DNA from: a virus
Reading direction: 5' to 3' (one strand)
DNA: 64,000 nt
IMG/VR virus record: IMGVR_UViG_3300049846_000628
Span: 1 to 64,000 of that record
The position numbers and the translations under genes are program-made. The stretch's first letter is position 1. Each line of letters begins with the position of its first letter. Below are positions 7,859 through 36,276 of this stretch, piece by piece. Below the pieces are notes generated by a model. The model was not told the origin of the DNA. It made no database searches and worked only from the letters and a program-made list of their open reading frames with translations.

Positions 7859-7981
7859 TCAACCCCAATAGATGACTCCAAGAGTGAAGAAAAGGAATAT
7901 AAGAATAGTGAATACCATAAGACCTACACCTAACCAGTTTACCCAGTTAGGCATAGGTTCGTGCTGAGGATTATGAGACAT
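7859..7981 (-). CDS. Small single-helix membrane protein (40 aa)
   Basis: MSHNPQHEPMPNWVNWLGVG, then one long hydrophobic segment (LMVFTILIFLFFTLGVIYWG). Its start codon lies inside the last codons of the GIY-YIG gene, which suggests the endonuclease gene was inserted immediately before it. The location between psbA and psbD hints at a membrane or photosystem role, but that is only inference. Confidence 0.6.
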   Translation of the reverse strand: MSHNPQHEPMPNWVNWLGVGLMVFTILIFLFFTLGVIYWG

Positions 7982-8645
7982 TGGTTTTGTGTTTTTGTTT
8001 TCTATATTTCCAATTTTGGTTTCCTTTTTTTGCTTCGCTTAATTTTTTTCTAGTTTCTTCTGATGGTGTTTTGCCTTTATGTGCTTCACTCATTTTCTTT
8101 TTGGTTTCATCGGATAATTTTTTACCTTTCATATTCTGATTACCTTTTTGTGCTTCACCAACTTTTTGTTTAGTTTCATCAGAAAGTTTTCTACCAAGAT
8201 TCCAAGTATTTCCCATCATTCTCTGCCTTATTTTATCTTTATGTTCCTCCGTTAATTTCATTCCTTTTCTTTTTTCACTTATTTTTTGTTTTTGTTCTTC
8301 CGTCATTTTTTTACCATAGTTGGGATTTTTTTCACCAACTCTCATTTCACTTAATTTTTTTCGTGTCTCTTCATTTACCAAAACACCAGAAGCACCTTCA
8401 CCACCATTAGTTCTGTTGCGAAGAATACCAGTTCCCAAATCCTTCCTACCAAATACATCAATCATATAGATTTCGTGTTTAAATGCTTCTTCTTCAGTTA
8501 AGTTTTTCTTCAAAAATATTATTCTAGATTTATCTTTTGGTGGTCTTATATCACCATTCATTTTATTATAAATTCTTTTTCCTTTTCCCTTTCCAATATA
8601 ATAAGGAGTTTTATCCTCTCGCAAATAAGCGTAAGTGTAATACAT
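7971..8645 (-). CDS. GIY-YIG homing endonuclease with NUMOD3 repeats (224 aa)
   Basis: The N-terminus MYYTYAYLREDKTPYYIGKG is the GIY-YIG motif (YTYAYL ... YYIGKG), with catalytic Arg in GKRIY and Glu in FKHEIYMI. Residues about 95-215 hold five to six NUMOD3 units (TEEQKQKISEKRKG, LSDETKQKVGEAQKG and similar) that bind DNA. It lies just downstream of the intron-bearing psbA, so it could drive psbA homing. Its leader is an elaborate cassette (8646-8757) closely matched at 35.5 kb. Confidence 0.9.
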   Translation of the reverse strand: MYYTYAYLREDKTPYYIGKGKGKRIYNKMNGDIRPPKDKSRIIFLKKNLTEEEAFKHEIYMIDVFGRKDLGTGILRNRTNGGEGASGVLVNEETRKKLSEMRVGEKNPNYGKKMTEEQKQKISEKRKGMKLTEEHKDKIRQRMMGNTWNLGRKLSDETKQKVGEAQKGNQNMKGKKLSDETKKKMSEAHKGKTPSEETRKKLSEAKKGNQNWKYRKQKHKTNVS

Positions 8646-8658
8646 TTCTACTCTGTTA

Positions 8659-8757
8659 TGGTTCGCAATAATATTTATAATACATTATAGCAGAAAAGGT
8701 GCCCGAAGACACCTTTTCACCTGATAGATGCGAACCACACAGGTATTAGTATTTATA
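8659..8757 (-). promoter_or_regulatory. Two late promoters, antisense-like hairpin and terminator before GIY-YIG gene
   Basis: Reading the minus strand: late promoter TATAAATA (8750-8757); hairpin ACCTG-16 nt-CAGGT (8719-8744) whose loop holds TGGTTCGCA (8729-8737); UUCG terminator AAAAGGTGT-CTTCGG-GCACCTTTT (8694-8717); second TATAAATA (8672-8679); then TGCGAACCA (8659-8667), perfectly complementary to the loop, 13 bases before the start codon. The first promoter would give a short RNA able to pair with the endonuclease leader. The order and stem are repeated at 35493-35584. Confidence 0.7.
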
Positions 8758-8798: not shown

Positions 8799-10139
8799 TT
8801 ATCCTACAGTCGGTGCGGTGAGAGCAACAGGAGTGCTTTCAGCAGCAGCAAGGTCAAGAGGGAAATTGTGCAATTGTGTTATCGTAAAGACTCTTTATTC
8901 TTTACTTCTTACTGTCGCCAGTAAGTTCAGACTATCTCTTCATCCTTATGTTTATTAAGGAGTCGGGCATTCGTGGGTAGATTATTGTTGGGACTCACTA
9001 CCTAGTCGTTAGACCTTTCAGAAAACTTAAACCCTTTCTGACTTGGTACGGGATTGTCTCATAGAGAGTTTCCCCGTTTAACCCGATTTTTCTAATGCCT
9101 ATTACTAGGCAACAACACCAACAATTCTAGCGTTGCGCTCGTGCATTACCTCCATTCCCAGTCCAGCACGGTTGAGAACATCAGCCCAGGTGTTAATAAC
9201 TTTACCCTGACTATCAACGATAGACTGGTTGAAGTTGAAACCATTCAGGTTGAATGCCATCGTAGAAACACCAAGAGCGGTGAACCAGATGCCTACAACG
9301 GGCCAGGCAGCAAGGAAGAAGTGCAGCGAACGGGAGTTATTAAAGGAAGCATATTGAAAAATAAGGCGTCCGAAATAACCATGAGCAGCAACGATGTTAT
9401 AAGTCTCTTCTTCTTGACCGAACTTGTAACCATAGTTCTGTGACTCGTTCTCGGTGGTTTCACGAACCAGTGAGGAAGTAACCAGAGAACCGTGCATAGC
9501 ACTGAACAGAGAACCACCGAACACACCAGCAACTCCAAGCATATGGAAGGGGTGCATCAGGATGTTGTGCTCTGCCTGGAACACAAGCATGTAGTTGAAC
9601 GTACCAGAGATACCCAGAGGCATCGCATCAGAGAAAGAACCTTGACCGAAAGGATAGACAAGGAACACCGCACTCGCAGCGGCAACAGGTGCAGAGTAGG
9701 CAACGCAGATCCAAGGACGCATACCCAGACGGTAGGAAAGTTCCCACTCACGACCCATATAAGCATAGATGCCGATGAGGAAGTGGAAGACTACCAGTTG
9801 GAAAGGTCCACCGTTGTAAAGCCACTCATCTAGGGAAGCAGCTTCCCAGATGGGGTAAAAGTGCAGTCCAATAGCATTGGACGAAGGAATCACAGCACCA
9901 GAGATGATGTTGTTTCCGTACATGAGTGAACCAGCAACGGGTTCACGGATTCCATCGATGTCCACAGGAGGAGCAGCGATGAATGCAACGATAAAGCAGA
10001 TTGTTGCAGCGAGTAGACAAGGCACCATCAATACACCAAACCACCCGACATACAAACGATTATCGGTGCTGGTGATCCAGTTACAAAATTGATCCCAAAT
10101 ATTTGATTGTGATTGTTGACGTGAAAGTGTAGCAGTCAT
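8799..10139 (-). CDS. psbA: Photosystem II D1 protein, two exons (9129-10139 and 8799-8870)
   Basis: Exon 1 encodes D1 residues 1-337 from [20 protein letters not shown] to VMHERNA. Exon 2 encodes [19 protein letters not shown] and the final PTVG, giving 360 residues, the normal length. Asp170 (SFSDAMPLG), Glu189/His190 (QAEHNIL) and His332/Glu333 (MHERNA) are in exon 1, but Asp342 and the mature C-terminal Ala344 are in exon 2, so unspliced RNA yields a protein ending RIVGVVA without those manganese-cluster ligands. Start 10139 matches the family; an upstream in-frame start would add 21 unrelated residues. Cyanophage S-PM2 psbA also carries a group I intron (established knowledge). Confidence 0.97.
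8871..9128 (-). ncRNA. Group I intron in psbA (258 nt)
   Basis: The boundaries follow from protein alignment: exon 1 ends ...AACGCT, the intron starts AGAATTG and ends CAATTG, exon 2 starts CACAATTTC. This obeys the group I rule of a 5' exon ending in U and an intron ending in G. Core signatures are visible: AACGACTA (P/R region) near 9010 and GAGATAGTCTGA (P7/S region) near 8935. It contains no long reading frame, so mobility must depend on a separate endonuclease, possibly one of the HEGs beside psbA. Self-splicing is expected but not shown. Confidence 0.9.
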
Positions 10140-10349
10140 TTGTTTAAAAAGGGTAAGTAAAAGTTCGGGGGAACGAACAGTTGTAAGTATCTCCCACAGC
10201 ACCCTCCACTGTGGGTATAAGAGACGTATTTTACATGGATAGTCTCGGTAAGGAGTATTAGTCCCTTTTCTCCATGGTCAATGTTACGAAACATTAAAGA
10301 TCCGTTACATTTGTTTACCTATTTATCATAGCACTTCATGAAGCAGAAG
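10140..10349 (-). promoter_or_regulatory. psbA promoter and long structured leader
   Basis: No gene is seen in these 210 bases. A GATAAATAG late-type box lies near 10320. The leader has several hairpins on the minus strand: GGAG...CTCC near 10250, CCCACAG...CTGTGGG near 10200 and GTTCG-TTCCC-CCGAAC near 10170. There is no strong Shine-Dalgarno before the psbA ATG. A leader this long suggests post-transcriptional control. Confidence 0.5.
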
Positions 10350-11932: not shown

Positions 11933-12052
11933 TCACCATACACCAGGAATAACTTGTCCGCTAACCAGGTAAGAACCAGCAGCAGCGACGAACCCAATCA
12001 TTGCGAACCAACCATTAATGCGCTCACTGCGCTCGTTAAAAAGATTTTTCAT
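11933..12052 (-). CDS. hli: High-light-inducible protein (39 aa)
   Basis: Single-helix Hlip: ERSERINGWFAMIGFVAAAG carries the chlorophyll-binding ExxNGxxAMxGF motif, then SYLVSGQVIPGVW. Phage Hlips are thought to protect photosystem II by binding chlorophyll or dissipating energy. Its ATG overlaps the stop of the HNH gene upstream by ATGA, so the HNH gene was probably inserted directly before it. Confidence 0.92.
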   Translation of the reverse strand: MKNLFNERSERINGWFAMIGFVAAAGSYLVSGQVIPGVW

Positions 12053-25795: not shown

Positions 25796-25811
25796 TATGT
25801 GCTCAGGCTCG

Positions 25812-25894
25812 CCACCAATTCTTTTACTGGAAATTGGAAACCAGGCGGGGTAACCCCATCCGCACCACCAATCCTTTAAAGAGAGATTGGAAAC
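25812..25894. repeat. Two tandem 30-bp imperfect hairpin repeats
   Basis: Units 25812-25841 and 25865-25894 share the outer parts (GTTTCCAAT ... ATTGGTGG on the minus strand) and differ in the middle; each folds as CCAAT...ATTGG. A 23-base spacer separates them. The 5' side of the sugar operon contains no gene from 25796 to 25918. Role unknown; too divergent for CRISPR repeats. Confidence 0.55.
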
Positions 25895-25918
25895 TCAATG
25901 GGTCATTGACTCCACCAC

Positions 25919-33551: not shown

Positions 33552-33586
33552 GTAAGAGACCTCCTGGTTTGTGCATCGTTGATAGG

Positions 33587-33634
33587 CATAGGAGGGGCAG
33601 GTCTTATGCGGAGTTTGGACCCCCGCTGCCTATG
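33587..33634 (-). ncRNA. Structured 5' segment of tRNA transcript
   Basis: Starting a few bases after the promoter at 33640, CATAGG / CCTATG, GGCAG / CTGCC and GCGGGGGT-CCAA-ACTCCGC nest into one interrupted hairpin. No reading frame fits. It may be a leader removed by processing or a third small RNA. Confidence 0.5.
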
Positions 33635-34832: not shown

Positions 34833-35483
34833 TCAAACAACTCTACCATACCAAAAACCACTTGGAAGTTCATCAATAGAATTTATATATTTGTTTTCAT
34901 TTCCATTTGTAATCCACTTTTTACCATAACAAGGATTTTTCTCACCAAGTTTTGCCTGAATATGTTTTCTTTTTGTTTCTGGATTTTGATGAGATTTGAT
35001 TGCTGCCTGTCTATGTTTCTCAACTATTTCTGGACGATTATGTGCTAATTTTCCACTTCTACTTTTTTTATTTTTGATTTCTGGTTTATTCAAAGTTCTA
35101 ATCAAGTTTTTTCTTGCTTTCTCTTTAAGTTTTGGATTACTCATAGGATTGTATTCTGTTTTCATCAACTCACTTCTTTTCTTATTTGCTTCTTCACCAG
35201 CACCTTTATTACAATAAAATCCAGTAGAAGTTTGTTTTGCTCTATTAGCAAAGTGTGGATTTTTATCTACTTCATAAAAGTCGTGGAGAGCACATTCTGC
35301 TGCCAGGGCTTTCTCCACACTATCAAAAGTTTCTAATATTATTTTTTGAGTTGGATTGAAAGTTTTATCTTTGAAACTTCCAAAATAACTTACATCTTCT
35401 TCTGGAAGACATTTACATTCTCTTTTTCCAATATATCCCCTTCCATATTCCTCATAGGAATAATACACATAAAAGTGTTTCAT
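34833..35483 (-). CDS. GIY-YIG homing endonuclease with NUMOD3 repeats (216 aa)
   Basis: FYVYYSYEEYGRGYIGKREC is the GIY-YIG motif, followed by Glu in EKALAAECALHDFY. The C-terminal half carries KRSELMKTEYNPMSNPKLKE and similar units, plus LGEKNPCYGKKWITNGNENK and NSIDELPSGFWYGR, typical of SegB/SegC-like enzymes. It lies between the complete lysozyme gene and its remnant. Its leader repeats the cassette seen at 8.7 kb. Confidence 0.88.
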   Translation of the reverse strand: MKHFYVYYSYEEYGRGYIGKRECKCLPEEDVSYFGSFKDKTFNPTQKIILETFDSVEKALAAECALHDFYEVDKNPHFANRAKQTSTGFYCNKGAGEEANKKRSELMKTEYNPMSNPKLKEKARKNLIRTLNKPEIKNKKSRSGKLAHNRPEIVEKHRQAAIKSHQNPETKRKHIQAKLGEKNPCYGKKWITNGNENKYINSIDELPSGFWYGRVV

Positions 35484-35492
35484 ACTACTCTA

Positions 35493-35584
35493 ACTTGCTG
35501 ACATTACTATTTATACAAGAAAGGAGTGCCGAAGCACTCCAATCTCACCTGAAAAGTGTCAGCAAGTCAGGTAAAGTTATTTAG
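35493..35584 (-). promoter_or_regulatory. Antisense-like cassette before GIY-YIG gene (second copy)
   Basis: Minus strand in order: CTAAATA late-type box (35578-35584) on the lysozyme stop; hairpin ACCTG-16 nt-CAGGT (35547-35572) whose loop holds ACTTGCTGACA (35557-35567); UUCG terminator GGAGTGC-TTCG-GCACTCC (35523-35540); TATAAATA (35508-35515); then TGTCAGCAAGT (35493-35503), the exact complement of the loop, 9 bases before the start codon. Stem, loop length and order equal those at 8659-8757 though loop sequences differ. Confidence 0.7.
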
Positions 35585-36276
35585 ACATCAGCAAGAACCA
35601 ATCGTTTAGCATAGTCATAAGCATATTGTGTTCTTGCTCCATGGTGTCCCCATCCAATCCATTCATAGGCATAATTCATATACCTATCAATAGATTTTCC
35701 AGAAACTCTCATTCTGTTTTCAATACTCTTCCATTGTGGTTCAGTAGTAATATACCGAAGTTGAGTATCAGCAGTAGAAGGATTGCCTCCTATTTTTTTA
35801 GCAAAAGCACCCAGTCCATAATAACGAGAAGCAGAAGTAAATTGTATCAAACCATAACCTCTTCCACAATTATAGTATGAGGTTCTACTACCACCTTCGC
35901 AAATGTTAGGAATAAAAGTTGATTCCTGACGAATATTTCCCATAATGGTAGCAAGGGCGTTTCTGTCTTTAATTCCAATGTCCTGGAAATAATCCAGGGC
36001 AACATTTTCATTTTCATTACACCCTTTACAAATTAACCTTTTTTCTTTTGGCTTTGGTAATGCAACCTCTCGGATTGCTGTCTTCTTTTCATCTACAAGA
36101 TCAAACTCTTTGATAATAGCAAATGGTTTGGTTGTTGGTTCCACTGGTGGTGGAGGACCTTGCATCTTGTAGTTGACGAATGGCAGTGATGCCGTACTGG
36201 TTGTAACCGATGCCAGAAGAGGCAGGGCTACTGTAAAGAAATTTTGCACTAGTTTTAATTGAACTCTACATCCCAA
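35581..36276 (-). CDS. Phage-tail-lysozyme-like muramidase with signal segment (231 aa)
   Basis: Residues about 90-231 match the phage tail lysozyme domain: ALATIMGNIRQESTFIPNIC (catalytic Glu in RQES), GRGYGLIQFTSASRYYGLGA, and WIGWGHHGARTQYAYDYAKR. An N-terminal hydrophobic stretch (NFFTVALPLLASVTTSTAS) may export it, and a CKGC pair lies at about 83. No ATG is present; TTG 36276 or GTG 36249 must start it. A partial duplicate lies at 33.7-33.96 kb. Confidence 0.85.
   Translation of the reverse strand: MGCRVQLKLVQNFFTVALPLLASVTTSTASLPFVNYKMQGPPPPVEPTTKPFAIIKEFDLVDEKKTAIREVALPKPKEKRLICKGCNENENVALDYFQDIGIKDRNALATIMGNIRQESTFIPNICEGGSRTSYYNCGRGYGLIQFTSASRYYGLGAFAKKIGGNPSTADTQLRYITTEPQWKSIENRMRVSGKSIDRYMNYAYEWIGWGHHGARTQYAYDYAKRLVLADV

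Follow-up and report, generated by a model that had tools for sequence, protein, structure and literature searches.

A predicted antisense small RNA built into homing-endonuclease cassettes of T4-like cyanophages

The stretch of viral DNA considered here (hereafter, the window) comprises 64,000 nucleotides (nt), positions 1 to 64,000 of the 211,201-base IMG/VR record IMGVR_UViG_3300049846_000628, and is judged from its psbA, tRNA and T4-type genes to come from a T4-like cyanophage. At two places on its minus strand, 35585-35481 (copy 2) and 8757-8645 (copy 1, downstream of psbA), the same compact module precedes a homing endonuclease (HE) gene. The module consists, in order, of a late-type promoter box (P1), a hairpin, a UUCG terminator, a second late box (P2), and a leader complementary to the hairpin loop. 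We consider it likely that hairpin and terminator form the gene of an antisense small RNA (sRNA), built into a mobile HE cassette and acting, from an upstream position on the same strand, as a brake on HE translation resembling that of the IS10 RNA-OUT.

Two copies of the module in the window

A sequence-only reading of the window had described one cassette order at two loci, with differing loops that each match their own downstream target. Every element of it is present: those of copy 2, including the loop of 16 bases and its 11-base exact complement before the start codon, were found base for base, and copy 1 repeats the order (Table 1). Both sRNAs fold as predicted, that of copy 2 with a minimum free energy of -23.7 (z -4.6). 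When the window loops were compared with their own genome, the only match besides the module itself was a single one of 9 nt at 12002, which lacks leader context and was taken as chance. The HE protein of copy 2 gave no Pfam match at E 0.001; it is a relative of the product of the gene that follows F-CphI in phage S-PM2.

Table 1. Features of the two module copies in the window (SD, Shine-Dalgarno)
Feature	Positions	Strand	Remarks
Copy 2: upstream host gene, Phage_lysozyme2	35581..36276	-	E 4e-14; cassette inserted at stop codon
Copy 2: late-type promoter box P1, TCTAAATA	35578..35585	-	5 nt before ACCTG; overlaps TAA stop of the upstream lysozyme-like gene
Copy 2: predicted antisense sRNA, ~57 nt	35516..35572	-	5' hairpin and UUCG terminator; predicted +1 = A35572
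Copy 2: 5' stem arm, ACCTG	35572-35568	-	Complementary to AGAGTAG of the leader too
Copy 2: 16-nt loop	35567-35552	-	
Copy 2: antisense segment, ACTTGCTGACA	35557..35567	-	Loop nt 1-11; exact complement of 35503-35493
Copy 2: 3' stem arm, CAGGT	35551-35547	-	
Copy 2: intrinsic terminator, GGAGTGC-TTCG-GCACTCC	35523..35540	-	Followed by T-rich tail; 1 found vs 0.0 expected in shuffles
Copy 2: second late promoter box P2, TATAAATA	35508..35515	-	For the HE mRNA
Copy 2: target, TGTCAGCAAGT, 11 nt	35493..35503	-	Predicted 5' end of the HE mRNA, +1 = G35502
Copy 2: remaining leader, TAGAGTAGT	35484..35492	-	Contains SD-like AGAGTAG
Copy 2: HE gene, GIY-YIG-like	34833..35483	-	PHROG 314 homing endonuclease, E 8.6e-13; ATG at 35483
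Copy 1: late box P1, TATAAATA	8750..8757	-	After psbA terminator
Copy 1: predicted sRNA, ACCTG-TGTGGTTCGCATCTAT-CAGGT and terminator	8693..8744	-	
Copy 1: late box P2, TATAAATA	8672..8679	-	
Copy 1: target, TGCGAACCA	8659..8667	-	Plus G.U pair and bulge further along
Copy 1: HE gene	7971..8645	-	NUMOD3, E 1.2e-27; PHROG 314

Recurrence in IMG/VR and in cultured phages

IMG/VR was scanned with four differently biased patterns, and all resulting counts are lower bounds. At least 174 distinct modules of the family, with at least 85 distinct 11-nt targets, were found, each target being matched by its own loop. The ACCTG/CAGGT stem emphasized in the sequence-only reading occurs in both window copies but was rejected as a defining feature, since stems vary across the family (GCCTT/AAGGT, GTCTG/CAGAC, GCTTA/TAAGC) and the motif alone is no more frequent than expected by chance (2 matches in the window vs 0.78 expected). 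That reading had also allowed for the stem lying near terminators at random, unlinked to any loop-leader complementarity. When only the stem and a downstream TATAAATA were required, the complement was present in nearly all matches with a late box 5 nt upstream and in essentially no matches lacking this box.

Other scans did not start from the stem. Among distinct leaders retrieved by a late box, AGAGTAG and ATG only, most have a complement of 9-14 nt approximately 50 nt upstream, and in a sample chosen without reference to P1, P1 precedes 92 of the 94 antisense-bearing leaders among the matches listed. A stem-agnostic detector returned at least 207 box pairs with a helix score of 10 or more, compared with 2 when targets were reversed. 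Applied to 84,980 genomes of bacteria and archaea, the same pattern left 112 usable matches, none with a helix score of 9 or more (best 8.0), while 144 of the 158 matches listed from viral contigs score 10 or more. As none of the 112 carries the complement, these matches were regarded as chance and a cellular occurrence was rejected. Since at least 85 distinct loop/target pairs recur in IMG/VR and none among the 112 bacterial matches, the combination of box spacing and complementarity exceeds chance.

In T4 late promoters, the TATA box precedes the start by about one helical turn (PMC2988020), and cyanophage late boxes have the sequence NATAAATA (PMC2984593). P2 is exactly TATAAATA in 173 of the 183 modules listed; in 177 of these 183 the sixth base after P1 is a purine (A in 102, G in 75), with ACCT or GCCT most often found there, and the leader begins with T followed by G or A at the position equivalent to the sRNA start. 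Based on this purine register, the T4 late box spacing and the cyanophage box sequence, the sRNA would start at the first stem base and the mRNA at the first target base. Stem and terminator are accordingly described here as a predicted stand-alone sRNA of approximately 55-60 nt with its start exactly at the first stem base.

The family extends beyond the marine phages to which the sequence-only reading had pointed: the cultured freshwater phage S-SRM01 (Serangoon Reservoir, PMC8557907) carries six modules, and phage B23 at least two candidates. One S-SRM01 protein with a module upstream of its gene, QPX48079.1 (L382:12515-13270), is annotated as 'translation initiation factor 2'; it resembles NUMOD3 homing endonucleases (Pfam E 2.9e-39). 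The same annotation is attached to gp45 of B23 (L582:595-1218), whose gene is also preceded by a module. In S-PM2, S-H68, Sf-CH5 and ACG-2014f, relatives of the HE occur without the module at those genes, and neither module pattern matches the records of these phages. Another conserved leader, GACGCAAGTAAGTCGCGGAACGGAGCGT(A/T)AGCAATTAGAATG, is common to the marine phages S-H68 and Sf-CH5 (L579 ~745-795, L580 ~750-795), where it precedes endonuclease genes that are related but differ in their surroundings.

Pairing, covariation and specificity

Departures from Watson-Crick pairing in the loop-leader register, scored without favoring G.U, comprise 27 G.U and 5 A.C combinations (binomial p ~1e-4). 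Such an excess is expected of RNA and not of a DNA repeat, and thus points to pairing between RNAs. The first nucleotide of the sRNA is linked to the leader element AGAG[U/C], with A-U in 71, A-C in 0, G-U in 21 and G-C in 25 of the modules listed (p 3e-13); because of this covariation, pairing appears to reach sRNA nt 1. As judged from these sequences, the duplex can begin at mRNA +1 and, with a single A bulged out, continue across the SD-like AGAG(U/C). Covariation is also seen within the stem: at least four of its five pairs form in all 85 distinct-target modules listed, and all five form in 66, compared with 16.5% in shuffles. At stem position 5, G-C, U-A, A-U and G-U are all used. These observations, together with the number of different targets that each have their own matching loop, strongly support the earlier proposal of selection on the loop-leader pairing.

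The pairing is also specific. For the 85 distinct targets listed, the duplex with the own leader has a median energy of -22.0 kcal/mol, compared with -7.7 for other leaders; the own leader ranks best of 85 for 64 sRNAs and among the top two for 78. Within single genomes, the matrices of duplex energies are diagonal (6x6 in S-SRM01, 5x5 in L134), and for each sRNA tested, be it from S-SRM01 with its six modules, from L134 with five or from the genome of the window with four, the preference for the own leader over others is large. The leader by itself is mostly open, with an unpaired value of 0.60 over the SD region.

Association with mobile nuclease genes

The 162 downstream open reading frames (ORFs) listed fall into 81 clusters and encode nearly exclusively nucleases, namely NUMOD3/GIY-YIG types, HNH, endonuclease VII-like proteins and one TnpB. 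Besides the GIY-YIG genes of the sequence-only reading, HNH, EndoVII and TnpB genes are preceded by the module as well. One protein cluster of 17 members is associated with 14 targets, and one target is shared by unrelated nucleases such as GIY-YIG and HNH. As one loop can serve unrelated nucleases and one nuclease cluster uses many loops, the loop-target code is not set by the protein. The TnpB/OrfB-type RNA-guided nuclease gene (L368:3958-5151, +) lies behind the same module of sRNA and late promoter as the HE genes. Two modules, L034:4482-4697 and L111:5307-5390, have no obvious downstream endonuclease and resemble what would remain once a nuclease had been lost.

Empty and occupied sites can be compared at the lysozyme-like gene. 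In empty relatives, the gene ends with ...GAAGTTTGA and runs on into a plain terminator, while occupied genes end with ...GATGTCTAAATA, their stop codon lying within P1, and are followed by the sRNA, its terminator, P2 and the HE. Because empty sites lack the whole unit, the sRNA belongs to the mobile unit and travels with the HE. The same spot holds different cassettes (L386, L388, L440), and among 79 representatives there are 30 in which an upstream ORF has its stop codon overlapping or directly adjoining P1. The architecture, pairing, covariation and specificity of the module, as well as its mobility with the HE, can thus be read from the sequences.

Proposed function and alternative explanations

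From these data we infer that the sRNA is transcribed, that it acts in trans, that it represses rather than activates, and that dosage plays a role. According to the proposed mechanism, P1 would drive an sRNA running from the start of the stem to the UUCG terminator, and P2 an HE mRNA whose 5' end complements the sRNA loop. The loop would contact the extreme 5' end of the mRNA, and the duplex would then spread along the 5' stem arm until it reaches about sRNA nt 1, with the 3' arm being displaced. By covering the SD-like AGAGUAG, it would block ribosome entry. The HE would be kept low in proportion to the copy number of the cassette, as RNA-OUT does with IS10 transposase, and the private code of each cassette would allow several HEs in one genome to be controlled separately.

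Several points weigh against this proposal. Both P1 and P2 are late boxes, so timing alone leaves unexplained why the mRNA would ever win. Marine relatives of the same HE genes, in S-PM2, S-H68, Sf-CH5 and ACG-2014f, lack the module, so a phage can carry such an HE without it. The position of +1 is assumed to be T4-like, and the contig sequences are not phylogenetically independent, which makes the p-values given above optimistic.

An unlikely alternative is control in cis, in which loop and leader on one read-through RNA pair as a pseudoknot that hides the HE start, and P2 transcripts, which lack the loop, are translated. This would follow the timing logic of T4 I-TevI and mobE with a different structure: T4 HEs use structures sequestering the ribosome-binding site (RBS) only on long early transcripts, and the late promoter escapes them (PMC2988022). 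The position of the loop, always just upstream on the same strand, also speaks for such a device. Nevertheless, a terminator separates loop from leader, and the late box 5 nt before the stem, found in 92 of the 94 cases listed, would be superfluous in a purely cis-acting element. Pairing on read-through RNA may still occur in addition to the trans-acting sRNA.

It is less probable again that the HE mRNA is protected or activated by the sRNA, which might, for instance, keep host RNase E or 5' pyrophosphohydrolase away from the 5' end of the message. In phage-infected cyanobacteria, protection by antisense RNA against RNase E is known, and the duplex begins at the predicted mRNA +1, which is the site read by such enzymes. 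However, the pairing runs on through the SD-like element to the last bases of the leader, which would block initiation, and the open leader offers no inhibitory fold to relieve. With little to unmask and with pairing that covers the initiation region, activation is less likely than repression. Finally, the inverted repeat might act as DNA, with the HE binding it at both promoters as an operator or a mimic of its homing site, much as I-TevI represses its own late promoter through operator binding (PMC2988022). This reading is hardly credible and was rejected, given that 17 proteins of one cluster face 14 targets while one target serves both GIY-YIG and HNH, that G.U outnumbers A.C, and that an operator gives no role to the stem, the loop position or the +1 register.

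Comparison with known systems

The antisense brake that we favor most resembles RNA-OUT of IS10/Tn10. This antisense RNA of 69 nt prevents ribosomes from binding to the transposase mRNA and acts more strongly with increasing copy number (PMC5006887). It is a short hairpin RNA that controls the nuclease-like enzyme of a mobile element through complementarity over the translation initiation region (PMC5006887), as the module sRNA would; in the module, this complementarity likewise lies at the predicted mRNA 5' end and extends over the ribosome-binding region. Unlike RNA-OUT, which is encoded on the opposite strand and overlaps its target gene, the module sRNA has a separate gene that lies 5' of P2 on the strand of its target, with its own terminator in between; both RNAs would come from promoters of the phage late class, and each cassette has its own loop code. 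The loop of RNA-OUT is the part that first meets the 5' end of RNA-IN.

The hairpins of T4-type HE genes (I-TevI, I-TevII, I-TevIII, segB and mobE of Aeh1) similarly provide RNA-level control of phage HEs beside a late promoter (PMC2988022), and the predicted P2 lies directly upstream of the HE. In contrast to what is proposed for the module, they act in cis, sequestering the RBS on long transcripts, and involve no separate antisense RNA. In the module, the hairpin is followed by the terminator and P2 and does not include the RBS, and the leader is mostly open. CfrI of S-PM2 is, like the predicted module sRNA, an antisense RNA of a T4-like cyanophage encoded near psbA and an HE gene (PMC2984593, PMC12197685). 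However, it is approximately 225 nt long, lies on the opposite strand and spans the psbA-HE junction (L219 2436-2633, minus strand). Identity with CfrI was rejected as strand and place differ, and no loop-leader module was found at the CfrI locus of S-PM2. In Rfam 15, the module had no match at or above the gathering score and only sub-threshold chance matches, so a known Rfam RNA was rejected as its identity. No published description of the module was found in the open-access literature searched.

On balance, we lean towards the view that these modules constitute a large class of antisense sRNAs in T4-like cyanophages that has so far gone undescribed and can be re-coded. They would travel with HEs of unrelated folds, use a private loop-leader code in each cassette, and serve as a copy-number brake and possibly also as an immunity that silences the same cassette when it arrives with a co-infecting phage. 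If so, an antisense-RNA brake would be common to HEs of unrelated folds, present in several copies per phage, with loop and nuclease freely exchanged. Studies of how specifically RNAs recognize one another would gain dozens of natural RNA pairs that share one design and are mutually specific, and it would become testable how selfish nucleases limit themselves in phage genomes carrying several of them.

Neighboring features in the window

The psbA gene beside copy 1 is interrupted (8800-10202, minus strand). It consists of a main ORF (9105-10202), a stretch resembling a group I intron, and a second, short exon (~8880-8799), which directly precedes copy 1 in an arrangement like that of the psbA/F-CphI region of S-PM2. 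A PhotoRC-II RNA was found at 10179-10286 and a wcaG RNA at 25801-25898. On the side of copy 2, an Rfam abiF RNA lies at 33559-33595 (minus strand; 44.2 bits vs a cutoff of 37), beside a tRNA cluster.
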